Shown here piece after piece: positions 16,431 to 61,911 of a stretch of 64,000 bases of DNA. Positions within the stretch are counted from its first letter, which is position 1. Each line of letters starts with the position of its first letter. The stretch is from assembly GCA_019054805.1 (NCBI GenBank), contig JAHQIY010000025.1, positions 124,001 to 188,000 on the forward strand, read 5' to 3'. This stretch comes from Brachionus manjavacas. Its lineage: Eukaryota > Rotifera > Eurotatoria > Ploima > Brachionidae. Made by a program: the position numbers and the translations under genes. The notes under the pieces are model-generated. The model saw only the letters and a program-made list of their open reading frames with translations, made no database searches and was not told where the DNA came from.

Positions 16431-16456
16431 GAAAAGAATTTTAGAAAAAAAATCCG

Positions 16457-17230
16457 ATGGCGGGAAGTGACGATTTAATTGTGGAATTGAACATTGGCGG
16501 CGTGTATTATACCACTACCACAAAAACTCTGTGCCATGAGAGCAACAGTTTGTTCAGTCAGATGTTTGAGACCAAGTCCCAAGTGAAAGATTCGAAAAAC
16601 CGCATCTTCATTGACAGAGACGGCCTTTTGTTTCGATATGTATTGGACTTTTTGAGGAATAGACAATTAATTTTGCCAGAAAACTTCAGTGAAAAAAAGC
16701 GCCTTAAATGCGAAGCAGAATTTTTTAGATTGCCAAATATGCTAAAATTAATTGGCGACTCGGACACAATTAATGGACATGCAATCAATGCTGCTAATTT
16801 AAAACCTGAGCGCTGCATTAGTTCAGCACCTGTTGGTGGCAGAAAGAAATTCACAAACGGCTGCATAATTGTTGGGTACAGAGGCACTTTTTCTAATGGG
16901 CGCGACGGTCTAAATGATGTAAAGTTTAGGAAAATTTCCAGAATTTTAATCAGCGGAAGGGTTCAGCTGTGCCGAGAGGTTTTTGGTGATACATTGAACG
17001 AGAGCAGAGATCCAGACCATGGCGTCAGTGACAGATACACTTCGAGATTTTTTCTCAAGCATACTTTTTTGGAACAAGCGTTCGATACACTCATAGAATG
17101 CAATTTTAGGCTGGAGTGTGTCGGGGCCACTGGAGCAAATCCTTTTTATGACAAGGACAACAAGGCACTTATTGACAATGAAGAAAACAAATGGCTGCAT
17201 TATAACGAATTTGTATTTGTAAGAATCTAG
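16457..17230 (+). CDS. KCTD12: KCTD8/12/16-like BTB protein (GABA-B receptor auxiliary family)
   Basis: Single-exon 257-aa protein. Residues about 7-105 form a T1-type BTB domain (LIVELNIGGVYYTTTTKTL, IFIDRDGLLFRYVLDFLRN, EAEFFRLPNM), which tetramerises or pentamerises in this family. Residues about 133-257 form the H1 domain specific to KCTD8/12/16 (CIIVGYRGTFSNGRDGLNDV, LCREVFGDTLNESRDPD, DRYTSRFFLKHTFLEQAFD, ending YNEFVFVRI). In vertebrates these subunits bind the GABA-B2 tail and Gbeta-gamma and speed desensitisation; the rotifer-like protein probably does the same, by inference. There is one intact ORF and the start is the first ATG in a good context (ATGG). A polyadenylation-like AATAAA lies near 17366. 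Minus-strand frames across it are shadows. Confidence 0.93.
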   Translation: MAGSDDLIVELNIGGVYYTTTTKTLCHESNSLFSQMFETKSQVKDSKNRIFIDRDGLLFRYVLDFLRNRQLILPENFSEKKRLKCEAEFFRLPNMLKLIGDSDTINGHAINAANLKPERCISSAPVGGRKKFTNGCIIVGYRGTFSNGRDGLNDVKFRKISRILISGRVQLCREVFGDTLNESRDPDHGVSDRYTSRFFLKHTFLEQAFDTLIECNFRLECVGATGANPFYDKDNKALIDNEENKWLHYNEFVFVRI

Positions 17231-20153: not shown

Positions 20154-21514
20154 TTAATCTTGAGTACATTTGTTAATGCAATAATAGTACCTACGTTTTT
20201 TCATCGGCTCGTTGCATTTTTTGCAATTAACATTGGCATTCTCACTGTTAGCTTCAACTTCTACAGTCTTAGCTCTTTTATTTGGTCTTGATGTGTCGTC
20301 AAAAGTTTCATCGTTTTCAACTATAACCCCTTCGTCTAATTGTACTACATCAGAAGGCTGTTTATTGTAGCATGATAAATTTTTTCTAGACGCACCAATT
20401 TTTCTCTTTTTTTCGATTGGAACATCCATGCCAATATCTTTAAAATCAAATAAGCGCAGACGAAAACTACAAGGAATCACATGTGAACATATATAATTTT
20501 TAAGCCAATACCAACAAGTACATTTGCTTAGTTTCCAATTATCTTTGTTGGATGTTATACTCTTTTTTCAAGTCTAAAGACATTTTGAAAACCTTTTGTA
20601 ATCGCATCTGCATTATCTGCAACTAGAATCGTTGGACATATTTTGACTTCATATACATTGAATGCTGCTAATTCAACTGACCTAAAATCTTGATTATTTT
20701 CAGAAGCACATAATGCTAAACCAAAAGGATGAATTTTTTTTGCTTTATCAGTAGTACCACCTGTAAGTGCTGGATATCCACCATAGGTAATTTTATAGGT
20801 CGCATCAGATAATATGTAATTTGTCTCTAATGCGAATTGAATCAGCTTTTTCGTTGTCAAAAAAACTCTGAAAACTTGGTTCGGAAAACTTTCATATTCA
20901 AAATTTGCAACAAAAACTTGATTTTCATCATCCGGAACTTGCTCGCACCATTGTTTGAGATCATTTAAACTCGGTTGAGATGTTTGTTTTTTTGTTTTTC
21001 TAATTGATTGCAAAATATTGTTAATTTTAACTTTTGCTGGTGGTTGAATGCCGTCTCTTATCAATTGCTTGATAATACCTTCAGCTTTGACACCAAGTTG
21101 TTCTAACTCTTTAATCCTTAACATTAACCTATCTTCAATTTTTTCTCTTTCTTGCTCTGGATGATTTGAATGGTCATCAATTGAAACGAAACAATGACCA
21201 GACGAACCTTCAGTTGATTGCAAATAAAGAGATGCCCTACATCCCTTAGAAAGATACCTACAATAAAAACGATATTTTTCACCGTTTTGATGTTTAAATT
21301 GCAGGTTTTTTCCTTTTACTTCACCCCTAACAATTTTCTCAGAAAATTCATTATAATTGTCGTAGCTGCAAAAGAATTCGTATTCGATGTTTGCTCCTCT
21401 TTTTTTCGTATCAATTTGCTTTAACACGACCACGTTTTCCGCATCGACCAAGGTGTCGTCGTCAGGGTTCATCAAGGCACTCTCATTTGAAACAGTTTTT
21501 GGATCGTTTTCCAT
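20154..21514 (-). pseudogene. MULE (Mutator-like) transposase, internally deleted
   Basis: The N-terminal 319-aa piece (21514-20555) has a FLYWCH/WRKY-like finger region (YRFYCRYLSKGCRASLYLQS, then HSNHPE) and the first half of the MULE DDE core (ILSDATYKITYGGYPALTGG, then ILVADNADAITKGFQNVF). It stops at about 20555. After a frameshift, 20554-20154 supplies the C-terminal SWIM zinc finger (CTCWYWLKNYICSHVI, pattern CxC...CxH), a nuclear-localisation-like KKRK stretch and a terminal Cys motif (CKKCNEPMKK ... CINKC). The part carrying the third catalytic acidic residue is missing, so the copy cannot transpose. A related C-terminus lies at 22834-23150. Confidence 0.82.
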
Positions 21515-21606
21515 TTTTTTTAGATAAAATTAGAATTTAAATTTGGTAAAATACCAGAAGTGTAAAGTTTATAAATAGTCAACTACAAAGTTTTATCATC
21601 ATTAAG

Positions 21607-25521: not shown

Positions 25522-26583
25522 ATGAAATCAAATATTTGTTTAATATTTGTATTAATACAATTTCAAATAGGTATTATTTAAATGATGCCAATTTTAAAAT
25601 TAAATTACTTTAAATTTTGATAGATGGCCTAAGTTCAAGCAATTTTCAGAAAGATTCAAACTCAAGTAAATAAAGCTTAAAATATTTACTTAGAAATTTA
25701 TTAGAAAAATTTGATAAAAGTGATTTCTATAATGTTTAATTTTTAATTTTTTAATTTTTAATGTTTAATAGAAATATAAGAGTCAAATTTTCGCTTTATC
25801 TGTAAGAAAAATTAAATTAATTTTTATGTTTGAATTTTTTAATTAATTCTTCAATTTTATTTAAAATTTTTTAAAGCTATAATAAAAAATAATAATAAAA
25901 AAACTTAAAATTAAAATCAATATTATTTTAAATATCTAAGAGTACTGGTAAAGAGTTTCCAGTATATTTTTTAATTAATTTTTTGCAATTTTATTAGGCA
26001 GTGTAATAAAACGATCAGCTTTAAATCAATACACGATCAATAATAAAAAAGGTTTGTTCTTTTGATCAAGGTGATTTTTTGGCTAATTATTTTTTAGTGG
26101 TCTGCTACTACACGTCATGGTCACGGAATAGAATAGGCGCAAAATTTGAGCCCGAACATATAGACCCACATCTATGTACACATTTGAATTACGCATTTGC
26201 TAAAATTAGGTTCGAAAAGCTTGTTCCATCAGAAAAGTATTTGGAAGAGACTTTCGAGCATGGAATGGGACTTTATTCCCGAATAAATAACTTAAAGCGC
26301 ACCAACCCCAAATTAAATGTTTTGATATCAATAGGAAGTAGATTTATCTTATCAATTTTTAAAGCTCGTAAATAATCCATTTAAAAGGCTTTGATCTAAA
26401 TGGGGAACTGAAACGATTCATTTATGACAGGTCAAAACGACTCAATTTTATAAATTCAGCTTTGAATTTGGTCAAAAAATATGGCTTTAATGGAATCGGT
26501 AATATAATTATTTAAACAAAATCAAAATGACATTAATACTCTTTTTTTAAGATTTGAATTTCGATGAAAAAAAGCACTATTAA
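25522..26583 (+). CDS. N-terminal half of a GH18 chitinase-like protein
   Basis: Six exons: 25522-25570, 25624-25665, 25998-26051, 26098-26337, 26388-26498 and 26552-26583. All junctions are in phase with GT-AG sites, giving 175 aa. The protein starts with a secretion signal (MKSNICLIFVLIQFQI). Barrel strands 1-4 of GH18 follow: VVCYYTSWSRNR, HLCTHLNYAFAKI, LNVLISIGSF and KKYGFNGIDLNFDE. It then stops. The canonical DxxDxDxE box aligns as N-x-x-D-x-N-x-D, so the catalytic glutamate appears replaced. Strands 5-8 are absent here but present in the next ORF after a monooxygenase domain. The stop is 86 bp before the next ATG. It could be an inactive secreted lectin-like fragment, a uORF-like first cistron, or a decaying half-gene. 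Confidence 0.8.
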
Positions 26584-26669
26584 AGTTTTTTTTCTAATGA
26601 ACTTTTACTAATTTAAATAAATTATTTATTAAACTATTATTCATTTAAAATTCATCATAAAATACCAAT

Positions 26670-29519
26670 ATGAAAGCATATCAATTTGAGATGATACTTT
26701 TTTATTTTTTGTTGATAGTTGTTAGAGTATTGCGCGTGAGTGGCCATGGTCGATTGATCGACCCGCCAGCAAGATCTTCGTGTTGGCGCGAATTTCCCAG
26801 AATATGCAAAACTGACTTCACTGATAATCAAATGTTTTGCGGTGGAAAAGAAACTCAATGGAATTCAAATGGTAAACAAAAGTGTAAAGATTCATTTAAA
26901 CTAAATTTTTTTAAAAAGGCGGGAAATGTGGAATATGCGGCGATAGTTATTCGGGGCCTAGGAATTATGAATTTGGTGGCAAGGGATACACGGGATTTGT
27001 GGTCAGAAATTACTCCCAGGGAGCAATTATTAGTGTCAGAGTTGAAGTAACACAATAGTAAAAATTAAAATATCTTTAGTTTTGATATTTATTTTTAAAG
27101 TTAACTGCAAATCACTTAGGATGGTTTGAATTTCGTATTTGTAATGCAGACCACTTGATAGCACATGGTCAAGATGCAAGCCAAAATTGTCTCAACCAAA
27201 ATTTACTCAAAGACCAGTTTGGAAATTCAAAAATGCTTGCTACGCCCGGAATGGGATCTTTTTACACTTATAAACTTATCCTACCGCCTGGACTTATTTG
27301 TCATCGATGTGTTTTTCAGGTTAAAAAAATCTTTTTCTCTCATCTTTCAAGTCGAGATTTTTTCTTTAGTTTTTTAGTTTCTTTTTATAAAATGAAACTG
27401 ATTGACTTCGATTGAAATTATATTCATTCCGGGTTCAAAAACAAGTTTTTTTAAAAAAATTTTTTTTCAAATTTATTTTCTTTTTTAATTTAATTTTTTT
27501 TTGTTAAGTCAAATCAATGACTTAAAATTTTTTTTTAAGTGAAGTTTAGTCAAGTGAACTAATTATCTGATTTTTAAACTAAAAAATAAATATGATTTTT
27601 TATTTTAATCCAAAAAAAGTTTAGTTTTAAAATCAGAAAATTAGTTGACTCGACTAAAAACTTCACTAAAAAAATGAAAAAAAATTTTAAGACATAGGCT
27701 TTGACTTAAAAAAAAAAAATTTAAGTCAAGTCATAACTTTGACTTAAATTTTTGTGACTTTGACTTAACACTGTGACTTAAAAACAAGTCTGCCTAAATC
27801 TCAAATTTTGACTTTTGCCCATGTCTGCATTTTTTTCATTTTTTATAAAAATTATCAATTTTTTTCATAGTGGAAATATCGTACAGGAAATAGCTGGGGT
27901 GTTAATCCAATAACAGGAAAATCTTGCCTGGGTTGTGGTTCCCAAGAGGAGTTTTATGGTTGCTCGGACATAAGCATTGGATACAGTCAAACTTCGACTC
28001 AATTTTATCAACCCTTTTACTTTTCGACAACAACTCTTGCAACAACCTCAATCAAAACTTGGCAACTGTCCACTGTTACCTATCAGACTACGGCCGTGCC
28101 AAATTATTTTTTTGAATCCAACTCAAATGTTTCTTTTATATGTCCAAACAATGGTTTGTATCCAAATTATCAAACCGGTTGTAGAGAGTTCTACTCTTGC
28201 TGGCATGTTGGCACTAGATGGGAAAACGTGGTTTCTATGTCCTGTCCGGCAAAACTCATTTTTGACAACCGCGTCAAGTCATGTAATTACGAGCAGCTGG
28301 TTGACTGTTTTGCCAATAAACATCTTGATTACTTGGATAATATTGACAACTTTAGAGACATACTGGGTGATTTTATATACGAATTAAAGACTGCCCTGCT
28401 CCGTCATAATCTAATTCTATCAATAACTATTCCATCTGAAAAGAATTTGCCGAAAAATAGGCAAAAAGCAGCTCAAATAATAAAGTTGACTACATCTTTT
28501 TTTATTTTTTTGTAAAATAAAATTTTTATTTTTTTTGTTCAAAGCAATGTTGATTACATAAACTTAATAGGATATGTAAGTTTGAGATTAAGTGTAAAAC
28601 TGACAGAAATAAATTTTGAGCAAAATAGGACATTCATGGTTCATGGGAGTCAGATATTCGGCATCACTCGCCGCTATTTGGAGATCCGAGTTTTGATGTC
28701 AATAGTCTGGTGAAGGGAATGCTTAATTATGGTGTACCGAGATCAAAGCTAGTTCTCGGAATGGCCCTTTATGGAAGAACATTTAGAAAAAAATATTTTC
28801 CATTTATTAAAGCTCAAAGTATATCAATCGAATCTGGAATATCGGGAAAGGTAGACTTTACTGTTGTTCTCAAAATTCAGCATAAATTTAACAAAAATGT
28901 TTCCTTTTTTTCAACAATTAAAATTTAAAAAATGCAAAATGCTTTGTAGCACCTTCTTTTTTAAATCAATCAGACTAAATTTTATTTATGATTTAATTTT
29001 AGTCTTTTTAACAAAAATGATATTCAATATTAAAAAAGATATTTTTTTTTAAATTAAACCTTAATTTTCTCAAAAGGAAATATTTTTGTTCAATTTTTTA
29101 TTTATTTAGTTAAATAGACAAAGAATCCATTTCTTTATTTTTATTTTGAAACAAATTTATAAAAAAAAACTAGTATTCAAAGTCATCGGGCATGATCGGA
29201 TATTTTGAAATCTGCGAATTGACAAAATTGTACGGATGGACCCGCATATGGGATAATGATAAACGAGTGCCCATTCTTTATAAAGGTAATGATTGGATCG
29301 GGTACGAAGATCACCAAAGTCTAATTCATAAAGTATTAACCAATTTTTTGAAATATTCAATTTTTAATCCTTGAAAAGACTAAGTATGTTAAATACAATC
29401 AATTGGGTGGGGTGATGTTTTGGGATCTCAGTTTAGACGACTACAGTGGAGCCTTTTGCAACAAAGTATTAGAAAATAAACAAAAATTTTTGCTAGAAAT
29501 TAAACATTTTTTAAATTAA
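26670..29519 (+). CDS. Secreted AA15 lytic polysaccharide monooxygenase fused to CBM14 and the C-terminal half of GH18
   Basis: Eight in-phase exons: 26670-26871, 26919-27046, 27101-27319, 27871-28484, 28545-28575, 28629-28850, 29174-29332 and 29379-29519, giving 571 aa. After the signal peptide the mature chain would begin with His (SGHGRLIDPPARSSCWRE), the first copper-brace ligand; the second is in LTANHLGWFEFR. GGKCGICGDSY and CLGCGSQEEFYGC are AA15 hallmarks. AA15 enzymes oxidatively cleave chitin or cellulose. A Ser/Thr-rich linker follows, then a six-Cys CBM14 (about 28130-28310). The text then runs directly into GH18 strands 5-8: NIDNFRDILGDF, NNVDYINLIGYDIHGSW, KLVLGMALYGRTF, GMIGYFEICEL and GGVMFWDLSLDDYSGAFC. 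The GH18 N-half and its catalytic Glu are missing. The monooxygenase should be active; the chitinase part is probably structural or binding. Confidence 0.87.
27500..27725. repeat. Palindromic MITE in the monooxygenase intron 3
   Basis: An inverted repeat of about 225 bp. Inner arms TTTTTAAGTGAAGTTTAGTC (27531 on) pair with the complement near 27620-27676. Outer arms carry TTAAGTCAAA at the left and TTTGACTTAAA at the right. AAGTCAA/TTGACTT words continue to about 27800. A related repeat is at 7658-8040. Confidence 0.7.
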
Positions 29520-29574
29520 GGGCAGATATCATTTAATAAATAGTGTAAAAAATGAATTATTTTCGAATATTAGA

Positions 29575-29808
29575 ATTAAAGCTCAAAAACCTGTGACGTT
29601 CCATAAGCAAATTTCAAATAGAGCTCATTGCTGGAATGGCGATGGCTTCTATCCTGATTACAATTCACGTTGCACTCGATATTATCGATGTTCTAACTCG
29701 TACACCAAGCATAGGCGCATAGAATATTTTTCATGTCCAACATCTACTCTATATGACGAAAGATTGAAAACTTGTACTTATAAAAACTCAGTTGTATGTA
29801 AGAAGTAG
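29575..29808 (+). CDS. CBM14 chitin-binding exon after the GH18 end
   Basis: An open segment (HCWNGDGFYPDYNSRCTRYY, FSCPTSTLYDERLKTC, SVVC) has the six cysteines of a peritrophin-A type chitin-binding domain. It begins after an acceptor-like AATATTAG or AATTAAAG and stops at 29808 (KK*). It lies about 60 bp after the stop of the preceding gene and is probably an alternative 3' exon or a domain cut off by a new stop. I could not find a phase-compatible donor with confidence. A further possible terminal exon lies at 29950-30057 (VSEIDDHFYMEAIKKLNF); a donor-like TAT|GTAAGAAG at 29796 could lead to it. Confidence 0.6.
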   Translation: MKAQKPVTFHKQISNRAHCWNGDGFYPDYNSRCTRYYRCSNSYTKHRRIEYFSCPTSTLYDERLKTCTYKNSVVCKK

Positions 29809-34396: not shown

Positions 34397-34559
34397 TTAC
34401 TACTTTGGACTCATCTATTAATAATTTTTGGCCTCTAAAATTACTAAATAAGAGCTAAGAAATGACTTAAACGGTAGCAATTTTTATTTTAATATTTATT
34501 TATTTTTTAAATGAAATAAAAAAATTATGTTTTGAGAAAAATATTTTATTATTTTTTAG

Positions 34560-35271
34560 CCTTAAGAAGAATACTGAACACGACTTTTCAACTGATATCT
34601 TCATTTTCCATTTAATAAGCCATTGTTCTAGTTCGTTCGTGTATTTATCTATCTTATTTTCTAGGTTCCCCTTTTTGTTATAAATGAAGAATGTAACTAG
34701 ATCATATGCGAAAAGCTGGGAGTATTCATTATTTGTTTTGTTTCTTTTGGGTATGTCACTAATATATATATTAAATAAAAGAGGACTAATTACTGAGCCT
34801 TGAGGAACACCTGCAGTTATTTGATATTCTTCGCTCAGATGATCATTCACATTTACCTTAAATGTCCTAGAGTCTAAAAAGGATCTAATCCAGATAGTCA
34901 AGTAATGAGGTGGATTTATTTTAATCTATTTAAAAAGTAAACCTTCATGCCAAACCCTATCAAAGGCTTTAGAAATATCAAAAAAAAGGCTGCAAACTCT
35001 TTTTTTTCTATTAAATGATTCCACAATTTTTTGAATTAAAAAGAAAAGATTATCTGATGTTCGCCGGTGTTTCCTAAATCCAGATTGCTCCTGGATAAGG
35101 AGTGAATTTTGTTCCAAATAATTGTATAATCTTGAATATACTATGCGTTCCAGTAGCTTTCCTAAACAACTCGTTATACTAACTGGTCTTTAATTTAAAG
35201 GATCTTGTAAAGAAGAGGCTTTTTTTTAATCGTAGTAATGTTCGATGTTTTCCACGCTTTAGGGACTCAAG
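34560..35271 (-). pseudogene. Internal LINE RT fragment, truncated at both ends
   Basis: Nearly identical to the RT of the copy at 52.9-54.8 kb: [40 protein letters not shown] and DISKAFDRVWHEG all appear. The palm box reads FAYDL where the longer copy has FADDL, and there are frameshifts near 34910 and 35120. It lacks both the 5' region and the 3' end with its conserved tail, which is unusual for LINE integration. Confidence 0.88.
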
Positions 35272-36636: not shown

Positions 36637-36645
36637 CTATAGCTT

Positions 36646-36676
<31 letters not shown>

Positions 36677-36975
36677 TTTGACTGTAGCTGGCTAGCCAGC
36701 GAGTGTGCTGAATTTTGAATTTTAAAATTTGCTTTGTTTGTAGCCTCTATCACTTGATTTTTCCATTTGAGATTTGTATTGAAGATAGCTCCAAGATCTC
36801 TTTCGGTTTTTGACGTTGATAACTGTTTACCATTAAAAAAATAAGTGAATTCTTTGTTTTTATGACCGTAATGCATAACCACACATTTTGATGCGTTGAA
36901 GAGAAGAAGCCAATCTTGAGTCCACTTGAAAATTAAATCTAAATTTTGTTTGGAAAAAAAAAGCTCAAAAGTCAA
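36637..36975 (-). pseudogene. CR1/jockey-like LINE RT C-terminal fragment
   Basis: The minus strand encodes the post-FADD part of a different LINE: LDLIFKWTQDWLLLFNASKC, VVMHYGHKNKEFTYFFNGKQ, STSKTERDLGAIF and LKWKNQVIEATNKANF. It degenerates into a CTA microsatellite that adds a run of leucines (36643-36677). 5' and core RT parts are absent. Confidence 0.8.
36643..36677. repeat. TAG/CTA trinucleotide microsatellite
   Basis: About eleven tandem AGT units interrupting the end of the RT fragment. Confidence 0.9.
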
Positions 36976-37464
36976 TTTTTATGATCTTTTAAATTAAATA
37001 ATTATATTTTCCGGGAAATTAATATTGTTTAAGATTGAGTGTTACTTCACTGGTAGACAAGACCGTCTTGCTAGTATAGCTCTTTTGGCAAAAGAGCTTT
37101 GAAATAATATTTTTCAAATATTTAAAATTTAATCTAAAAGATCTTGACCCTTATCCGTCCAACATCGGGTCAAAAATGACCCAAGCAAATTTTTCAAAAT
37201 TTTATTTTTGTTGGATTGAATAAAAAAATATTGAAAATCCCTTAGAATTGATTTTCTGTTGTCTTTTTCTTTAAATTTTTTTCTAAAATACCGAAAACAG
37301 AAACTATTTTTTTAAAAAGTTTATTGTCCAAAAATAATATTGTTTTAATATTTTCGGTTTTTTAAAGCTTAATTAAAATTGAAAATAATTGAGTCTTTTG
37401 TTTTATAAACAATGCTTATTGATAAAAAAATTGATATAAAAACTTTAAATGTTTCACAATTTAT

Positions 37465-38990
37465 AATGATCTAATTAATCCCCAAAAAGATAGAGAAATA
37501 ATTGACTACAATCTTGAGTTTTTTAATAAGGAAAGTCAATGAAAATTTGACGAGTCCGTTAGCACTAAAGAGATTACATCAGCGATAAAAAGGTTAAAAG
37601 AAGAAACAGCTTCGGGCCAGACCAAATTCATAACTATATGTAAAAAATTTTCCTCAAAATATTCTAAAAGACATAATGTATCTTTTTAGTTTAATTCTAA
37701 GAGAAGGTAAAATACCGAATGCATGGAAATCTGCTAACATTACTATGATACCTAAAAAGTCAATTTAAAACCTTCCCTCTTACCTAATACATTCGATTAA
37801 TTCTTTTTTAGGCTCAAGATCATTTAAAGTAAATGTAAATGGTCATAAGTGATGAATACCTCATTACTGCAGGTGTTCCTCAAGGCTCGGTAATTAGTCC
37901 ATTACTTTTTAGTATTTTTATCAATGATATTCCTAAAAGAAATAAAACAAATAGTGAATATTCCTTCTTTTTGCTGATGACTTGGTTACATTTTATATTT
38001 TTAAGAAAAAAGGAAATCTAGAAAATAAGATAAACAAATACTTAGACAAACTAGAAACATGGCTCTTTAGGTGGAAGATGAAAATATCTGTTGAAAAGTA
38101 TGTTGCTTCATTGTCTTCACTAAATATAATAAGAAAAATAATGACTTAAAATTAAAAATATATGAAAATAAAATTGAGAGTCAAAAGAAAATTAAGTTTT
38201 TAGGTGTAAAATTAAATTCAAAATTAACCTTTACCCCAATGATTGATGAAATAAAACAGCGTTGTAGTTCACGGTTGAACTTAATAAAAATATTGTCAAA
38301 CAAAAAATGGGATCTTAATTATTACACACTAGAAAACCTATTTATTGCGGGCTCAAACGAAGGTCTTGAACCATTCGGACGTTCCCTGGGGTCACCCCCT
38401 AAATTATTTAAAAAATAAATAAAAAAATAGAAAACCTATTTAATTCTTTAATCGAATCTATAATTGATTACTCTTTTCCGTGTCTAAATTCATTTTCGGA
38501 GACAAACATTAGAAAAATTCAGTCTTACCAAACTGAGCATTTCGTTTTATACTTAAACTAAAATATGATACTCCTTTTAATATTCTGCATCATGAGGCCT
38601 TTAATAAACTTAAATTTTTAACTGTCTCGAGTCGAATTTATGAATTGAGTGAAAGATATGTAGCGTCATTCTGTTGATTGTCAAGCTGGTTGACGAATAT
38701 AAAGCGGGTTTTGAATCAAGATATGTTGAATACCCGACTCAATTGTGTAATTGCTATCTTACTATTTCTTCTTTCTTTCCTGAAATGTTCAATACTTAAA
38801 TTCATTGCACATGTCACCTCTTAAAATTTATCAATTTTTAATTGTCTTTTTATTAAATTTAAACTTATTTTTAATCTTTCTTATATTTTTTTTACATTTT
38901 ATTTTGTCTTAATTTTAATTTTAATTTTTTTTAATCTGAAGGAGGTTTAGCTCGGCACAGATAAAACAAATAAATAAATAATAAACAACT
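37465..38990 (+). pseudogene. Decayed LINE copy inside the piggyBac element
   Basis: Reads from DLINPQKDREIIDYNLEFF through [45 protein letters not shown] and SIIDYSFPCLNSFSE, with several frameshifts and deletions. It ends at the family 3' word (CTGAAGGAGGTTTAGCTCGG at 38937) and an AAATAAATAAATAA tail. It is 5' truncated. An 83-bp insertion at 38345 breaks the ORF. Confidence 0.85.
38330..38442. mobile_element. 83-bp retroposon with 15-bp target-site duplication
   Basis: TAGAAAACCTATTTA occurs at 38330-38344 and again at 38428-38442. The text between (38345-38427) is absent from related LINE copies, whose reading frame continues across the join. The insert is GC-rich at its start (GCGGGCTCAAACGAAGG, GGACGTTCCCTGGGGTCACC) and ends in an A/T-rich tail. 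GGTCTTGAACC faintly resembles a tRNA B box. Confidence 0.85.
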
Positions 38991-49000: not shown

Positions 49001-50792
49001 TACTTATTATTTAAAATTTTAAATATTTAAGATATAATCATCAGTGTTCAAATTTTTTTCCTAACATTGATTCTTTATTATTAAAACCTTGCATAAAATT
49101 AATGTCAACTTTTGCTTGATTCATTAGTAACTTTTGGACCCTGTTGAGCGTTCAAATGTCTTTTCCAAATTCATTTGTCTTCTGGTGACTATTTCTGCTT
49201 GATTCCGTGTAGGTTTCATTTCTTTCAACTGTTCTCCTTCAATTAATCTTTGGTCCTCCTGCATAAATATTAAAGATAATAAATTAAAAGTAATTACATG
49301 ATTGGAAAAATCGTGGTCAAAAATCAGAATATTAAAATTTAAAAGATTTTAACAAAACAAAATTAAAAAAAAATTACAAATTAAAAAAAAAGCTCTATAT
49401 TTTTACTTTATTATGATTTTGTCAAAAATTAAACTTTTAAAATTTTTAAAAATCAAATTAAATTTTTTTTTGATGACTAGTCCAAACATCTAAGATTTTG
49501 TTAGCCCAAAAAAGATATTTGGTATAAAAATGTTCTTCTTCTAGGTTGAACGAGACAAAAGATGAACTAATAAATGAAAGAGCGCGATCAGCCTCGCGTA
49601 ATTTGGCATGCCAAGCTGATATAGCTGCACTAAAGGCAAAGTAATTAAAACCAAATTTAGTACTAATCGAAAAATCTATTTTTGGATAATTAGGCTGTCA
49701 AGAGCAGAGCTGAAACTGAGTACTTTGGAGCCGCGAGCCGAGTTTGCTCGACAATTGGAACGAGAAATATGTGATCTAAAGGATGAAATACGCAGAGTTA
49801 GGTGCGATAATGCCATTCTAGCTGACCATAATGAGTTTCAAGCCGAGGTAATACGCTCCCGTGCTGTCTCGCCTGTTTGCTACTGGTCGCGTCCATGCTC
49901 GCCTGTTCGTTCAAGACCAATTTCTCCATGCAGATCGAGGCCTCTCTCCAGATCATGTTCACCTTGCAGACTTCCATCCGACTCTCCATTGTCTCCAAAT
50001 AACTGCACTCAAGTAGTGCGGCAAGAGTCGCTCACTGCCAAATTTAATGATTTGTACACTTGTGAACGACTCAGTGCCATGGACACGTTGAGAAACTTTT
50101 GCGATGATTACGAAAATAACCAAAGAATAATTTTTGCTTCAGTACAAGAGGCGTTTTCTGTGGCAAAAAGAAATTTTGCTGATTGGAAAATCAGGGCCAG
50201 ATCAACAGTGGCTTTGACTCATTTGGGCCCCGAGACTCTTGAAGAAGCGGTCCAAAATTACATCAATCGCAATATGGATCTCTATGATTTGCCATGCATG
50301 ACTTCGGTAATTTTTATCTTAATTTTTAGTTTAATAAAAAAAATATATTAAATAATGAAAGATAAATTTATTTTATTTTTTTAACAGGAAGTAATTTGTG
50401 GTTTGAACAACAATCCAAAAATTTGTCTACCCACTGGAGTCAGTTATTCAATAATCAGCTCTTTTATTCGCGAAGCATGCCGTATAGCTTGGGAAATGTC
50501 CACTTTAGCTTATCCATTGGACACAGCGTTGGCTATTGATGCAGAAGTCATGGACGAAACTAAATATAGAAGGACTTATGATAGTGAATACAGCGCACCA
50601 TTGGTAAATCATCACGTTTGGCCATGTCTCATGCAAGGAACAAGAGTTATTTCAAAAGGCGAAGCGTGCACCAAACGTGGAGCTTCTTTGAACCGATCAA
50701 GGCAAAGAAATTGTTCCCCATTGAGAAGTTGCCTGAGAAATCGATCTTCTTCACCAGTGCGAAGAGCTAGATCGTGTTACTCAATGTATTAA
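43008..50792 (+). CDS. Unrecognised 525-aa coiled-coil protein with Tyr/Ala-rich and Ser/Pro/Arg segments
   Basis: Six exons join in phase: 43008-43097, 43914-44019, 47890-48157, 49545-49640, 49694-50306 and 50388-50792. The start is the first ATG (AAAGATGG) after an acceptor. Order of regions: a helical N-terminus (IPSMQRKLENLYDNYN), a Tyr-rich stretch (YPYYSYYYPYYYYPYASAS), a run of alanines, and a long coiled coil over exons 3-5 (ELSDLSYRYERELDGLETNL, LNETKDELINERARSASRN, FARQLEREICDLKDEIRRV). Next comes an SPVRSRPISPCRSRP-type basic Ser/Pro/Cys repeat, a more globular helical region (ACRIAWEMSTLAYPLDTALA) and a second RSCLRNRSSSPVRRARS tail. It is reminiscent of filament or cuticle-associated structural proteins, but I do not recognise the family. 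Intron 2 (3.9 kb) carries a satellite. AATAAA follows near 50982. Confidence 0.8.
45890..46740. repeat. 121-bp tandem satellite, about seven units
   Basis: The word TTTTTTGTCCGGA recurs near 45903, 46024, 46145, 46265, 46386, 46507 and 46628, i.e. a 121-bp period with one 120-bp unit. A shortened unit follows at 46703. Middle units are almost identical; edge units diverge (GGATCC against GGATTT). Located in intron 2 of the coiled-coil gene. Confidence 0.95.
48765..48800 (-). repeat. LINE 3' tail scrap
   Basis: TTGTTTTCTGTTCGAGCTCC on the + strand is the reverse complement of the LINE 3' word, followed by an A-rich tail. In intron 3 of the coiled-coil gene. Confidence 0.5.
49129..49266 (-). 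other. Antisense exon-like ORF in intron 3
   Basis: A 45-codon minus-strand frame (QEDQRLIEGEQLKEMKPTRN, then AEIVTRRQMNLEKTFERSTG) is preceded by an acceptor-like TTTATGCAG and also has an ATG. Its GC content is clearly above the AT-rich intron and its amino-acid mix is normal. It could be the last exon of a gene nested on the opposite strand, or a retrocopied scrap. No partner exon found. Confidence 0.35.
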
Positions 50793-52419: not shown

Positions 52420-55195
52420 TTTTTGTTTTCTGTACCGAGCTAGAGCTCCTTCAGAATAAGTTAAAAATTAAAAAAATAAAATAAAAATGAAATAAAATAA
52501 AATAAAAATAAAATTAAAGTTAATAAAATAAGATAAAAAAAAAAAAAAAAAAAAGAATTAAAAAAAAGTAAATAAGCTAAATAAATGAAAATTAAGAATA
52601 TATAAAATTGGAAAAGATTGTTACATGTGGCTCATGTTTAAATAGTTCAAGTTTCAGGAAAAAAAGAAGAAATAGTAAGGTAGCAATTACACAATGGAGT
52701 TGGGTAGTCAATATATCTTGATTCGAAACCTTCTTTGTATTCCTTCACCAGTCTTACAACCAATGGAATAGAATGACTCAGTCCTGTCCCAACATATTTC
52801 TCGCTCAACTCAAAAAGACGATTCGAGACTGTTAGTAATTTAAGTTTATTAAAAGCTTCATGATGCTGGATGTTGGAGGGAGTATCATCTATCCTTATTT
52901 TAACTTAAGGATAGATCTTACTGATGTATTCTGAATTGCTTGTAGTTTTTTGATATTATTTTCTGAAAATGAATTCAAGCAAGGAAAAGAATAGTCTAAA
53001 ATTGATCCGACTAAAGATTTATATAGATTTCCTAGTGTGTTCTGATTAAGACCCCATTTTTTGTTTGACAATATCTTAATAATATTTAGCCTTTTATTGC
53101 AGCGCTCTTTAATTTCATCTACCAGTATATTAAAGTTTAATTTAGAATCAAATTTAATACCAAGAAACTTGATTTCTTTTTGTCTCTCTATTCTGTTTCC
53201 ATAAATTTTTAAGTTAAGATTATCACTCTCTTTTTTGTACCTAGAAAAGACTAATGAACACGACTTTTCAACCGATATCTTCATTTTCCACTTAATAAGC
53301 CATTGTTCTGATTCGTTGAGGTATTTATTGATCTTATTTTCTAGGTTCCCTTTTTTGTTATAAATGAAGAATGTAACTAGATCATCTGCAAAAATTAGAG
53401 AGTATTCATTATTTGTTTTGTTTCTTTTAGGGATGTCATTAATGTATATACTAAATAAAAGAGGACTAATTACTGAGCCTTGAGGAACACCTGCAGTTAT
53501 TTGATATTCGTCGCTCAATTGGTCATTCACATTTACCTTAAATGTCCTAGAGTCTAAAAAGGATCTAATCCAGATAGTCAAGTAATGAGGTGGATTTATT
53601 TTAATCAATTTAAAAAGTAAACCTTCATGCCAAACCCTATCAAAGGCTTTAGAAATATCAAAAAAAAGGCCGCAGACTCTTTTTTTTCTATTAAATGATT
53701 CCACAATTTTTTGAATTAAGAAGAAAAGATTATCTGATGTTCGCCGGTGTTTCCTAAATCCAGATTGCTCCTGGATAAGGAGTGAATTTTGCTCTAAAAA
53801 ATTGTATAATCTTGAATATACTATGCGTTCCAGTAGCTTTCCTAAACAACTCGTTATACTAATTGGTCTATAATTTAAAGGATCGTGTAAACTAGAGGCC
53901 TTTTTTTGAATCATAGTAATGTAAGATGTTTTCCACGCTTTCGGGACTCTACCTTCTCGAAGAGTTAAATTAAAAAGTTCTATGATTTCTATTAATGAAT
54001 TTCTAGGTAAGTTTTTTAACATTAAATTATGAATTTGGTCAGGTCCTGATGCCGCTTCATTTTTTAATCTCTTTAAAGCCATAATTAATTCATTTAAGCA
54101 TATTGGATCATTAAAATTAGACTGGTTATAATTCCTAAAGAAAACAGAGTTAGAATTTAGAATTTCGATATCTTTCTCAGTATCAATTAAATCAGAATTA
54201 GGACTAAATATTGACGATAAGAGTTCTCCAAAGCATTTTCCCTTTTCTTCATTAGTTTTGAATTCCCTTTCATTTAAAATCAATTTAGGAATTAAATTTG
54301 ATCCTTTTTTTGTTCTAAATTTATTTATTTTTTTCCAAAAAGGTCTACTTGTCAGTGGGTTTTTTCCCATCTTCTCAATAAAATCAAACCAATTTTGATT
54401 CCAGAATTTTTTTAAAGAGGCGTTTAACTCAGATGTAATTTGATTAAATTTTTGCTTGAGCTTTTGACAGCGAGTTTTCTGGTAATTTCTTCTTACTTTC
54501 CTACGTTCTTTTATCAAATTAACAATGTTTGGCGGAAGACTCGTTTTGTAGATTTTCTGAGAAAGATATGGAATGCTTTTATGTGAAGCAGAAATAATTT
54601 TTTCTGTTATTTTATCATTTAGTTGATCTATTGTGAGGGAACTTTCAGTGACATTCACTATTTGAGAATTTAAAATCTCGCTGAATAATTGCCAGTTTGC
54701 TTTCTTATAGTTAAGCCTTTTAGCTGCTGATTTATTTTCTAATTGATAGCCCATAGAAATCGATGCTTCGATTGGGAAATGGTCACTAGTCATGTCTTGA
54801 CTATTTAAGACACTAAAGTCGGTAATTTTGTCAATCAATGAAGATGAAACTAAAAAAGGTCAAGAATTTCAAAGTAATTCTTATTAAAAATATTGAAAGT
54901 AGGATGCTTATCATTGATTACTGAAAAGTCTAGCTCGTTGATTATTCTTTCTAATATTATCCCGTTTTCATTTTCCCCTACGCAGCCTATTTGCTTTGTT
55001 CTAGCGTTTAGATCACCACCTAAAATGTAGTTTCTACATGTTTTATTTACTGTTTTAAAAAACTCAAAGTTCAGAAGCACATTAGGTGGATTATAAAGAC
55101 TAAATACAAACAGTTCATTATTCTTTCCTAAGTTCATTTTTATACAAAGGAGTTCGGAATTGAATTCCTCGTCAATGGAAAATGAATACTTTTTA
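52420..55195 (-). pseudogene. Longest LINE copy: endonuclease C-terminus plus full RT
   Basis: Jockey-like non-LTR retrotransposon, 5' truncated. On the minus strand, 55195-54850 encodes the C-terminal part of an APE-type endonuclease (YNPPNVLLNFEFFK, GGDLNARTKQIGC). A one-base shortfall in a T run near 54845 breaks the frame. From 54838 the text continues with SDHFPIEASI (endonuclease end), the RT fingers (ASGPDQIHN, NYRPISITSCLGKLLERIV), [45 protein letters not shown], the catalytic FADD ([11 protein letters not shown]) and KFLGIKFDSKLNF, to the stop at 52895. A 3' UTR of about 450 bp ends in the family 3' word at 52435. One frameshift and the missing 5' end make it inactive, but it is the best reference copy here. 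It is inserted in the Tigger element. Confidence 0.92.
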
Positions 55196-57659: not shown

Positions 57660-60044
57660 TTAATCATATTTAAAAAATTTCATATATGATTTATTAAAAT
57701 CTGCATTTTTCTCAATCCATTTGCTTTTCATTATTTGTTCAATGCTCAATCGTTCAACTGGATTGAAAACCAAAATCTAATATTATTTTTTATTTCATTT
57801 ATCCTAAATATTGAAAAGACAAATTTACCATTGAAATTAATTCTTTTAAATTATCACTAAAACAATCCGAAAATTTGTAATTGACCATTTTTATTCTCTC
57901 TATTGTTTCGTTTTGATCATCGCTACAGAATGGAGCTTGACCTGACAAGAGCTCATAGCACAAAACACCTAGACACCAAATGTCAACTTTTTCACTATGG
58001 GCTTCACGTAAAATCACTTCTGGACATAAATAATCAAGTGTTCCCACTAAACTATGGCATACATTCTCTTCTGATAAGCTAAAATAGAAATTTTAACCTT
58101 TGGTCCACTATTGAATAAATTAGTATACTCTGAATCTCTTATCTTGTTAGCCCATCCGAAATCAGCAATTTTAATTTCACCAAGTGAGCCTATTAAAATA
58201 TTTTCTGGTTTCAAATCTCTGTGAATTATGTTCTTGGAATGGATATGCTCGAGGGCCCAGCATATTTGAAGAATACACGTAGCAGCGTGTTTTTCTTCAA
58301 TTCTTTCTCTAGATTGTATCAATTTATATAAGTTTCCTCCTGAAGCGTATTCCAGAATGAAATAGATTTTGTTGCTGTCATGAAACCAGCCATAAAAACT
58401 GACTATGTTCGGGTGCCTTTGGAAAAATGTCAAAACAGTGATTATTTAGTCAGATAAAGTTCCTACTTTAATGATAAGTGTAATTCACATTCTCGCTTAA
58501 AATTTTCGGTTGTTTTGTTTTTTACAATGTAATTTTTGGACATGATCTATTAAAAATAAAAAGATAAGCAAAAAAAATTTTAAATTAGAAAAATTTGTAC
58601 AAACTTTTATGGCAACTAAATGTTGATAATCTGTTCTTTTTTCTTTGGCCACATAGACTCTTCCGAATCGTCCTCTGCCCAAAGGCTTGCCAAAACAAAA
58701 ATCGATCAAAGTCCATGTTTTTTCTCTGAAAACCAAATCAAATATTTCAATCAAAAATCAAGCGTTTTGTCTTTTTTGTCAATTATAAGAAATAAAATTT
58801 TCACTCAAAGCAAAGCATTTTTTTTTGATTTTACATCAAAATTTTTAAGCTAATTCAAAAGTGATTCTGAGGTAAGATTATCTAATTTTTTGTAAAATTA
58901 AGCAATTTTACCAATTTTTAGGTAAATAATGCTAAACCAAAAAGGGTCTCAAAAAGATCATTTTTTACGTTTTCTAATAGAATTTTCCAAAAAATGAAAA
59001 AAAAATATTTCTACTTTTCAAAGCAACAAAAAAATAATCTACCAAATTTTACGTAAAACTACTATTTTTCGAGATAAAAAATCGTAATGGAAAGTAAAAA
59101 AATCATAAGTAGACTTTGAAAGTTAATGCAACTATGAATTGGCATCAAATTACTTAAGAAGCTCTTTCACATAAATGGCACTGCGGGTAAAAAAAAAGAA
59201 AAATAATTTGTTAAATGTCAAAGCTTAATTTTTTAAAATTCTCTTCATAATCGTTTACTAAGAAGTGACATTTTTTAATTTAAATTGAAAACTTTTTTTT
59301 AATAATTTAATTGAAAAACCCGATCGATCATTGAAAAATTAGTAAAGATTAAAAATTTCTTTTTTTTTAAAAACTGACAATTTTTGGTAAAAATTTGTGG
59401 AGAACATTTAAGTAGAATTCAGATAGTGGTGTAGTTTTGACCCGTGCAAACCTCAGCTGATACTAAATAGAGGTAATCCTAGAAATTAAAATTTCTTATT
59501 CGCATTTTATCTTCTCTTAAAGAAAATTAGTAAAAATACATAAGTTAAAAAGGATATATTTTTTAGTTTTGGGGGAATTTAGATATTATTATATAAAAAT
59601 AAAAATTATTTAATTGATATTTTGAAATGCTTACTCTTGCAAATAAGATCCCATCGACTTGACTGATTTTATCAATTTTTTATTAAAATTTTCAAGATTA
59701 GTCTAAAAAAAAACTTAATTTCAAATATTGAAAAAATTAAAAACATAATTATTTTTAAAATATAAACTGCAACTCAGTTTATATCTAAGCTTGTTGATGC
59801 TTCATTATTGTCTTAATAAAAATTCTGTAATAAAACAATAAATGAAATTAAGAGTTGTAAAGTCTCTTTCAATTCAGCTAATTTTAATTTTCAATTGATT
59901 TAGATTAAGTCTGAAAGAACTTCACTTTATCTCAATGAGTGCACAATTGACATTACAAAAATAAAATAATTCCTTTCGAAAAACTTACCTTATGTTTAGT
60001 ATCACTGTAGATTTCAAGGATCGAATTGAGCAGCTAGTCAACAT
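57660..60044 (-). CDS. AURK: Aurora family mitotic kinase
   Basis: Ser/Thr kinase of spindle and chromosome-passenger functions. Six minus-strand exons join in phase: 60044-59989, 58725-58605, 58546-58467, 58416-58129, 58078-57829 and 57776-57660, about 303 aa. The first exon gives only MLTSCSIRSLKSTVILNI, so the N-terminus is short, as in Aurora B/C. Landmarks: TWTLIDFCFGKPLGRGRFGR (P-loop), HLVAIK (Lys), FKRECEL (alpha-C Glu), HPNIVSFYGWFHD, HRDLKPEN (catalytic loop), ADFGWA, GTLDYLCPE, VDIWCLGVLCYELLSG and a C-lobe end NPVERLSIEQIM then KWIEK. The activation loop depends on the acceptor chosen: 58078 gives SEENVCHSLVGT, 58051 skips nine codons. Either way the usual Arg-Arg-Thr-Thr is missing. 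Whether it is A or B type cannot be said. Confidence 0.92.
58866..59185. repeat. TTACG-rich MITE-like repeat, copy E
   Basis: Lies in Aurora intron 1. Holds GGTAAATAATGC, AATTTTACGTAAAACTAC and CGAGATAAAAAATCG, and ends near GGCACTGCGGGTAA. Boundaries approximate. Confidence 0.45.
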
Positions 60045-61394
60045 TGAAGCTGCACTCAATCGAAAGTAAGTTAACTACCCAAACAGAAAGCAGAAATTAA
60101 ACAAAAAACCAATCCTTTTCCAAATTTTTTAAATCATATTTTTGTAAATAACACATAAAAACCTAGTGCCATTAAAAAAATTCCTATCATTTGACATAAT
60201 CAAAGACCAATTTACGGCACCCCAAAATATCACTCAAAAGAAAAAAAATAATATTTTTAGATGCATGTGCCTAAATTATTTTTTTAATAATAATAATAAA
60301 ATAAAAATATTTGTATTGATGCTGATTATGCGATGGCTAATAGTCAATCAATATTAATTGTTGGTTTCACCTAAAATCAAATATAATCTTTTCTTTTTTT
60401 TATTTGTAAATCTATACCGAGCTAATGCTCCATCAGAATAAAAATTTATAAAAAAAAATTAAAAAAAGGTTTAAATAATGAAAAAAAAATAAAAACTAGA
60501 GGCTAGAATTGTTTAAACTTTTGATAGTTAAGGAAAAAAAGAAGAAATTGTTATGTAGCAATTAGATTTTAACTTTGGTTTTTTTCCCAAAGATCTTGTA
60601 ACATGACTTTTCATTAGAAGTTTTCACTTTCAATTTCTTTGGGGTACTAATTTATCATATTTTAAAATTTTCGATCTTTTTGAAAATAAAAAAAGTAGCC
60701 AAATCATCTGCAAAAAGAAGTGACTGTTGTTGGCTGTTTGTTTTATTTCTTTATGGTATGTCATTTATAAAAATGCTAAAAAGAAGTGGGCTAATTGCTG
60801 ATCCTTGTGAAACTCCTGCTTTAATATTGATCTAAAAGATCTTGAATACAGAAACGATCGTTTCCAATAGATAGATAAGGAGGTAGATTAATTCAAATCA
60901 GCTTGTAATTTTGTCCATCGTGCCAAACTCTATTAAAAGCTTTAGAAATTTTAGAATAAAGACAAAAGACTTTTTTCTTTCTATTAAAAGACTCTACCAC
61001 TTTTTGAATAAGAAAATAAAAATTATCTGCAGTGGAGATATTTATTGTTTTCAAGAAAATTTTATCTTCTAGTGTAAATAATACGTTCAAGTAACTAGCC
61101 AAGGCAGCTTGTCATACTAATTTGACGATAGTTATTAGGGTCTTGAGTGGGAGAAGATTTCTTAGGTATCATGGTTATATTTGCTATTTTCAAGGATTTC
61201 GGGACACGGCTTAGTTCCAAAATCATGTTTGAGAGTAAACTAATTTCAAATAAAGTCTCTAAAGGTAATTTTTTTAACATTAGATAGTGGATCCGATCTA
61301 GACCAGAAGCGGCTAGTTCTTTTAGTTTTTTTAAGGCACTTGACATTTCTGATAGAATGAAAGGCTCGTTGAAATTATTTTGTACCTTTTTTTT

Positions 61395-61911
61395 GGTTAT
61401 CCCTAAAACACGGATCCGGATCGCCGGATTAAAACACGGATATTATTTATTTATTATTTATTTATTTGAAACATGAAACATGAAACAATCTTTTCCAATT
61501 TATGTCTTTTCAACTTTAATTTTTTTTAGCTTATTTACTCTATTTTGATTCTTTTTTTTTTTATCTAATTTTACTAACTTTAATTTTATTTTTATTTTAT
61601 TTTTTTATTTTATTTTTAATTTATTCTGAAGGAGCTTTAGCTCGGTACAGAAAACAAATAAATAAATAAATAATTTAACACACTTAATTGTAATTGAGTT
61701 TGACACAAACTCAAACCATTTTGTAGTCCTAGAGTATCAACTGAAACTGAAGGACCAAAAGTTACAATTTCAAATAGTGTTGATTTTAAATTGTCTTTTT
61801 CAATTTTTTTCAATCCGCATCTGTGTTTTAGGCTCCGACAAAAATCCTTAAAATCGATCCGTGTTTTAGGTACCTAATCCGGCGATCCGGATCCGTGTTT
61901 TAGGGATAACC
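61395..61911. mobile_element. MITE with 37-bp terminal inverted repeats, itself invaded
   Basis: The left end GGTTATCCCTAAAACACGGA continues TCCGGATCGCCGGATTA; the right end is its reverse complement ending at 61911 (with two small internal differences). The motif TAAAACACGGA is repeated inside each end. It interrupts a T-run of the LINE (T8 left, T7 right), so the duplication cannot be read exactly. A + strand LINE 3' UTR (61465-61675) is nested inside. Confidence 0.88.
61465..61675 (+). repeat. LINE 3' UTR nested in the MITE
   Basis: About 200 bp virtually identical to 55470-55650, ending CTGAAGGAGCTTTAGCTCGG, TACAGAAAAC and an (AAAT)n tail. It is the youngest layer of a three-level nest. 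Confidence 0.88.

Follow-up and report, generated by a model that had tools for sequence, protein, structure and literature searches.

Among the closest described systems is the mitochondrial cox2 of Campsomeris wasps, a gene reported (PMC5374615) to be divided by insertional fission into cox2a and cox2b, with other open reading frames (ORFs) in between; the two complementary polypeptides apparently form a heterodimer. A similar arrangement is found in the rotifer Brachionus manjavacas, in a 64,000-nucleotide stretch of contig JAHQIY010000025.1 (GenBank assembly GCA_019054805.1, positions 124,001 to 188,000, forward strand; hereafter the window, in whose coordinates all features are given), where the coding halves of a GH18 chitinase-type barrel lie in two adjacent genes, the second of which also encodes an AA15 lytic polysaccharide monooxygenase (LPMO). 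The source genome comprises 114 Mb in 61 contigs. The Campsomeris gene is mitochondrial, with a nuclease-bearing ORF cluster between its halves, whereas the rotifer gene is nuclear and intron-rich, and what was inserted now forms one reading frame with the downstream half.

Three further systems share single traits with the locus. Sabbadin et al. (2018, PMC5823890) report AA15 domains combined with CBM14 and, in Chlorophyta, Bacillariophyceae, and tunicates, with GH18; those fusions are to GH18 domains, whereas in the rotifer chain GH18 is represented by its second half alone, the first half being encoded by a gene of its own upstream. YKL-39 (PDB 4ay1, whose entry title names a pseudo-chitinase with retained chitooligosaccharide binding) likewise has a GH18 fold in which hydrolysis is lost or expected to be lost, but it is a single-chain barrel, in contrast to the rotifer barrel, for which two genes are needed and which is linked to an LPMO. 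Half-barrels of (β/α)8 glycosidases, cut near the middle and studied apart (PMC4591997 and PMC5770038), are laboratory constructs; the rotifer cut, between β4 and α4, arose in nature. No report of a naturally split GH18 domain or of this rotifer gene, and nothing on AA15 in rotifers, was found among the open-licence PMC papers searched; four papers there that mention both LPMOs and rotifers look unrelated, and for GH18 chitinases of Brachionus a single review came up.

Two plus-strand gene models fit the locus, with all 13 introns of the GT-AG type and 15 exons free of stops and frameshifts. The first (N-gene, 25522 to 26583) has 6 exons and encodes a protein of 175 aa consisting of a signal peptide and GH18 strands 1 to 4, followed by a stop. 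Exon 1 (25522 to 25570) encodes the signal peptide (MKSNICLIFVLIQFQI) and aligns with the start of P0121, a predicted protein of Brachionus calyciflorus described below. Exons 2 (25624 to 25665) and 3 (25998 to 26051) encode a leader, and exon 4 (26098 to 26337) encodes GH18 from β1 to β3 (VVCYYTSW...VLISIG), as assigned from Pfam and the structure model of the orthologue. Exon 5 (26388 to 26498), bounded by introns (83,1) and (121,1) in the codon and phase numbering explained below, continues to the start of β4 (..YGFNGI). Exon 6 (26552 to 26583) contains only DLNFDEKKHY, a degenerate catalytic motif, and the stop; P0121 ends in DLNFDEKKNY.

The second gene (C-gene, 26670 to 29808) has 9 exons and encodes 649 aa, comprising a signal peptide, the AA15 LPMO, CBM14, GH18 from helix 4 to strand 8, and another CBM14. 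Exon 1 (26670 to 26871) encodes the signal peptide and then the mature AA15 start, HGRLIDPP, placed by alignment with the AA15 structure 5msz. Exon 2 (26919 to 27046) encodes AA15 sequence, and both of its flanking intron positions are common to L085, an AA15 gene on contig C16 of the same genome; exon 3 (27101 to 27319) contributes, by the 5msz alignment, the second copper histidine (TANHLGWFEF). The AA15 part thus requires introns at 26872-26918, 27047-27100, and 27320-27870. Exon 4 (27871 to 28484) is the fusion exon, running uninterrupted from the end of AA15 through a linker and CBM14 into GH18 α4-β5 (FANKHLDYLDNIDNFRDIL..), in agreement with Pfam and with a second B. calyciflorus protein, P0001. 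The remaining GH18 exons, supported by the gene model and the intron comparison, are exon 5 (28545 to 28575; β6, NVDYINLIGY), exon 6 (28629 to 28850; DIHGSWES...YGRTF...SGK), exon 7 (29174 to 29332), and exon 8 (29379 to 29465; β8, GGVMFWDLSLDDYSGAFCNK). Exon 9 (29521 to 29808) includes the end of GH18, a linker, the second CBM14 as detected by Pfam, and the stop. An earlier reading of the sequence alone had ended the locus at 29519; the C-gene continues beyond that point, with the second CBM14.

In the Pfam GH18 profile (PF00704, 317 positions), the N protein covers positions 1 to 114 (E value 3.8e-23) and the C protein positions 127 to 317 (1.7e-41). Coverage of the whole barrel is reached solely by the two proteins together, encoded as complementary, non-overlapping halves around the insert. 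Neither chain contains a GH18 barrel in one polypeptide: the N protein stops after its DLNFDEKKHY, and P0121 ends likewise. The C protein also matches LPMO_10 at residues 26 to 217 and has two CBM_14 (PF01607) stretches (E value 1.2e-15 for the protein). This bears out the sequence-only reading in its description of a first ORF, starting at the ATG at 25522, with GH18 strands 1 to 4 and a stop (the model of P0121 also has four barrel-type strands), and of a second ORF with AA15, CBM14, and then the later GH18 strands. That reading also held that the halves neither overlap nor miss a segment; the second point is very nearly but not strictly correct, as about 12 Pfam positions (115 to 126, the β4-α4 loop) are in neither half.

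Both pieces are found in B. calyciflorus. The sole match to the N protein among 54 candidates is P0121, a predicted stand-alone protein of 174 aa, which aligns over 100% of the N length with 56% identity (98/174). It ends in GIDLNFDEKKNY, and the N protein of the window ends in GIDLNFDEKKHY. On the AA15 side, the best of 133 matches is P0001, a partial sequence that sets in with the last AA15 exon, followed by CBM14, the C-terminal GH18 half, and CBM14, the same fusion as in the window. The pieces of the split form, for which the sequence-only reading had proposed a search in related rotifers, are thus present as the N-half in P0121 and the fusion in P0001. The GH18 parts of the two species align without gaps, with 69% identity in the N-half (89/129) and 71% in the C-half (160/225); by subtraction from the whole-protein and GH18 counts, identity in the N leader is about 9/45. 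For comparison, the AA15 gene L085 is 70% identical (128/184) to P0004, which of the two AA15 proteins of B. calyciflorus set against it is the better match. When the N coding sequence was allowed to drift neutrally to 56% identity, just 15 of 2000 simulated runs stayed stop-free, with a mean of 5.6 stops. Judged from these sequences, the conservation of both halves is unexplained by neutral drift, and the arrangement is old enough to be common to the window species and B. calyciflorus. A search with the joined halves, which reaches only proteins of about 272 to 864 aa that share exact words, revealed no unsplit orthologue (3755 candidates, 193 proteins at E ≤0.001): among the 120 listed, P0001 scores 62% identity and all others 37% or less. 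Within the rotifer's own genome, the best non-self piece has 52% identity over 66 aa.

The AlphaFold model of P0121 has a mean pLDDT of 84.5, with barrel-type strands at residues 49-53, 76-85, 121-126, and 163-166 and a short strand at 88-91. All of its 50 listed PDB matches are chitinases or chitinase-like proteins; the first, the insect chitinase 5wup, superimposes with a root mean square deviation of 1.2, 42% identity, and a TM-score of 0.68 by query length. In the model of P0001, the GH18 part (residues 211 to 400) has pLDDT values of 82 to 97 in 18 of 19 ten-residue blocks and 55 in the remaining one.

The state of the active site was assessed by a hand count of columns conserved in 80% or more of 39 comparison GH18 rows, one of which (P0168) is a C-terminal fragment. 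From C50 to D165, P0121 retains 23 of 28 such columns. At the catalytic end it retains none of 5, with D→N, W→F, E→D, Y→E, and P→K replacements (N167, F168, D169, E170, and K171). The GH18 catalytic motif is DxxDxDxE, and no version of it with the glutamate is present: of the 38 GH18 rows that have a residue in the glutamate column, 35 have E, P0121 has D in that column, and the window has the same DLNFDE. The C-half retains YD.HG.W and the strand-8 tryptophan. With fold columns retained and the catalytic end changed in both species, the barrel fold is apparently conserved and GH18 hydrolysis has probably been lost. The copper histidines of AA15 are intact: HGRL follows a signal-peptide-like stretch, and ANH aligns with APH of the Thermobia AA15 (5msz, E value 1.6e-41), in line with copper binding by His1 and His91 as given in PMC5823890. 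The axial tyrosine position is apparently a Phe (EEF versus EEY in 5msz).

Intron positions allow the ancestry of both parts to be traced. They were compared across 23 GH18 loci of the window's genome, modelled by our own spliced alignment and uncurated; some are partial, L020 and L078 are the same gene, and L002, L006, and L010 look like near-identical copies. Coordinates are codon and phase in the GH18 domain of a reference B. plicatilis protein, 'putative chitinase 3' (P0123), to which a stretch of locus L025 looks, on visual inspection, near-identical. The window introns fall at (83,1) and (121,1) in the N-half and at (181,2), (192,0), (271,0), and (323,0) in the C-half, and these recur in 2, 5, 8, 5, 6, and 3 of the 23 models, respectively. 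Intron 121 is clean in L028, L030, and L081; in L024 and L060 it comes with implausibly small exons, perhaps modelling errors. The window gene has no intron at (147,0), a position occupied in 15 of the 23 models; such an intron would be located within the fusion exon. The fusion point thus lies inside a GH18 stretch that L028, L030, and L081 carry as a single exon between introns 121 and 147; the break is in the loop that follows the catalytic strand, and intron 147 has been lost. Locus L004 has an intron at (126,1), and insertion into an intron near codon 126 is conceivable.

Two of the three introns of the AA15 part, after TQWNSN (phase 1) and VRVE (phase 0), match those of L085 in place and phase, so that this part is no intronless retrocopy. 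The matches of GH18 and AA15 introns with those of paralogues indicate that two ordinary genes, each with its introns, were brought together as DNA copies, which supports the suggestion of the sequence-only reading that an AA15-CBM14 gene was inserted into, or exon-shuffled with, an ancestral chitinase gene. These comparisons do not discriminate between insertion and other kinds of rearrangement, for which an orthologue in the unsplit state would be needed.

In trees with 21 comparison rows (9 of the 23 modelled loci were dropped as copies, partial, or too divergent), the window gene and its B. calyciflorus counterpart form a clade with support of 100/100 for the joined halves, 100/99 for the N-half, and 100/100 for the C-half. 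The stem of this clade is long, at 1.56 changes per column for the joined halves, 0.88 for N, and 1.84 for C. A placement of the split gene beside one intact paralogue was considered and dropped, as the trees give no supported intact sister.

Beyond the anatomy of the locus, the intron ancestry of its parts, the occurrence of both pieces in two species, and their non-neutral conservation, which the comparisons above demonstrate at the level of sequence, we infer that two separate proteins are made and that N and C assemble into a barrel; the partnership is suggested by their complementary coverage, their equal conservation between species, and the likelihood that half a barrel would fare badly by itself. 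On balance, and by a narrow measure of confidence, we favor insertional fission of a nuclear GH18 gene into two secreted chains, of which N docks on C to form a non-hydrolytic barrel that positions the LPMO. Under this scenario, a copy of an AA15-CBM14 gene would have landed, in a Brachionus ancestor, within the part of a GH18-CBM14 chitinase-type gene that encodes the β4-α4 loop. The upstream GH18 part would have become a short gene with its own stop, encoding a secreted chain N with strands 1 to 4, and the downstream part would have been fused to the AA15-CBM14 frame, giving a secreted chain C of the composition AA15-CBM14-[α4 to β8]-CBM14. Docking of chain N on chain C would complete a GH18-type barrel which, having no catalytic glutamate, would hold on to chitin without hydrolyzing it and so place the active LPMO on its substrate.

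Fission of a gene by insertion with retention of both halves is reported for mitochondrial cox2; the candidate described here is a nuclear, intron-bearing animal gene, with a split that predates the divergence of two rotifer species and has persisted in both. Nature thus provides a case in which to ask if two chains can rebuild a barrel that is severed between strand 4 and helix 4, and what use an LPMO may make of a hydrolase fold that is no longer catalytic. We advance only tentatively the full claim that an animal nuclear barrel gene has been broken by an insertion, with secreted products that reassemble and an active LPMO in the same chain as the second half, in at least two Brachionus species.

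Several observations weigh against insertional fission with reassembly of the chains. The B. calyciflorus pieces sit on contigs of different length (6,856 and 14,535 bp), which leaves their adjacency there conjectural, and P0001, being partial, lacks the AA15 sequence upstream of the last exon. Structures were predicted for single chains only, and the model of P0001 is below pLDDT 50 over residues 1 to 102, for which reason its whole-chain PDB match was not used. The change on the tree stem is unequal, nearer to one change per column in N and to two in C, which makes it less likely that the halves evolved in strict concert up to the species split; equal constraint holds only since then. Just 86 bp (26584 to 26669, plus strand) separate the N stop from the AA15 ATG, and this gap leaves little room for the 3' end of one gene plus the promoter of another; putative untranslated regions in B. 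plicatilis average 52 (5') and 94 (3') bases (PMC1925144). An in-frame splice that would join the two genes into one is an additional point, taken up below.

An AATAAA at 26616 in the gap was considered as a poly(A) signal and is uninformative, since 39% of background 86-bp windows hold one. A trans-spliced operon was also considered: the sole AG in the gap is at 26584, just past the N stop, although an AG further upstream could still be used. In PMC1925144, no spliced leader is reported among B. plicatilis expressed sequence tags, with rare cases not excluded by its authors, and a spliced-leader operon is unlikely here.

The alternative that fares best, although still unlikely in our estimate, is that these are two functional, independent genes, the N-half having a job of its own (e.g., binding chitin or some other ligand as a small protein) without ever meeting the C-half, whose GH18 part would give the LPMO an extra domain for binding chitin. 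A signal-peptide-like start and a stop are present in each half, and the unequal stem change fits separate histories. The family-conserved cysteines C50 and C74 are both in N, and C311 and C377 are both in C; in chitinases, these cysteines pair up. On the other side, a lone half barrel would, on general grounds, expose a large hydrophobic face, and most fold columns of the whole barrel are retained in both halves, with the closely similar identities between species given above.

To evaluate readings that join the genes by splicing, GT donors at 26440-26669 were combined with AG acceptors at 26600-26959 and 28150-28419, which yielded 14 in-frame joins. Scores are rough, since the matrix behind them was derived from the split locus itself, with its 13 introns, of which 12 acceptors score 6.1 to 10.6 and one 0.8, with donors at 4.1 to 9.8. 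It is improbable, in our view, that the locus encodes one long protein of about 800 aa, in which the donor at 26498 joins an acceptor at 26719 in the AA15 signal-peptide region, AA15-CBM14 sits inside a GH18 loop, and exon 6 is an alternative terminal exon. This join keeps the frame, with an acceptor score of 7.5 that is ordinary for this gene, which is the additional point against separate chains mentioned above; a join from 26498 to 26919 (10.3) is likewise in frame but loses the N-terminal histidine. The long protein would, however, omit DLNFDE, which precedes the same protein end in B. calyciflorus, and the copper-binding N-terminal histidine of AA15 would sit in the middle of the chain.

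Restoration of an intact GH18 by alternative splicing past AA15-CBM14 is very improbable. The sequence-only reading had named transcripts spliced from 26498 directly to an exon near 28320 as evidence that would overturn it; the enumeration gave one in-frame join from that donor into the C-half, at 28358, which is not favored, as its acceptor scores 2.2 and the join deletes LNFDE and NIDNFR. Another join from 26498 falls in CBM14 (28187, score -2.3), and the four joins from 28279 on use a donor at 26470 with a score of 1.4. An assembly error, likewise raised by the sequence-only reading, or a decaying pseudogene is scarcely credible in spite of transposon-like ORFs nearby and a dispersed repeat in intron 3, as the matching predicted proteins of B. 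calyciflorus have the same fusion and the same N-half ending, and the intact state of the 15 modelled exons and the neutral simulation both speak against decay.

The repeat in AA15 intron 3 (27500 to 27793, no strand assigned), recognized from genome matches and an inverted-repeat scan, is about 290 bp long with inverted arms. It resembles a miniature inverted-repeat transposable element and is found in at least 39 other places of the genome with 87 to 95% identity (847 candidates, 40 of them scored). An ORF at 20555-21529 (minus strand), some 4 kb before the split gene begins, resembles a Mutator-like element transposase (PF10551, below the Pfam cut-off). ORFs resembling long interspersed nuclear element reverse transcriptases were recognized by eye at 343-1163, 34500-34925, 36637-36978, 38095-38418, 52895-54859, and 61095-61442; the 654-aa ORF at 52895-54859, the sole one checked against profiles, matches RVT_1. 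Host genes in the window include those for a KCTD8/12/16-like BTB protein (16445-17230, plus strand), a protein kinase (58047-58445, minus strand), and a MIEAP-domain protein (49620-50351, plus strand). Scans of the window for Rfam families (gathering threshold) and tRNAs were empty.

Two other regions of the genome assembly deserve mention. Locus L031 (G000:C40:37535-41101) is an intronless LPMO_10 match beside an ORF that resembles, by eye, a bacterial ABC-transporter substrate-binding protein, and contig C40 may be bacterial rather than rotifer. Loci L008 and L070 (G000:C12:1231180-1261600) comprise three similar GH18 units in tandem, in which the parts before and after approximately codon 181 are separated by 7.7 to 9.4 kb; in L070, a single open frame of 383 aa runs from the end of one GH18 into the beginning of the following one, an arrangement that suggests a multi-GH18 protein with very large introns.

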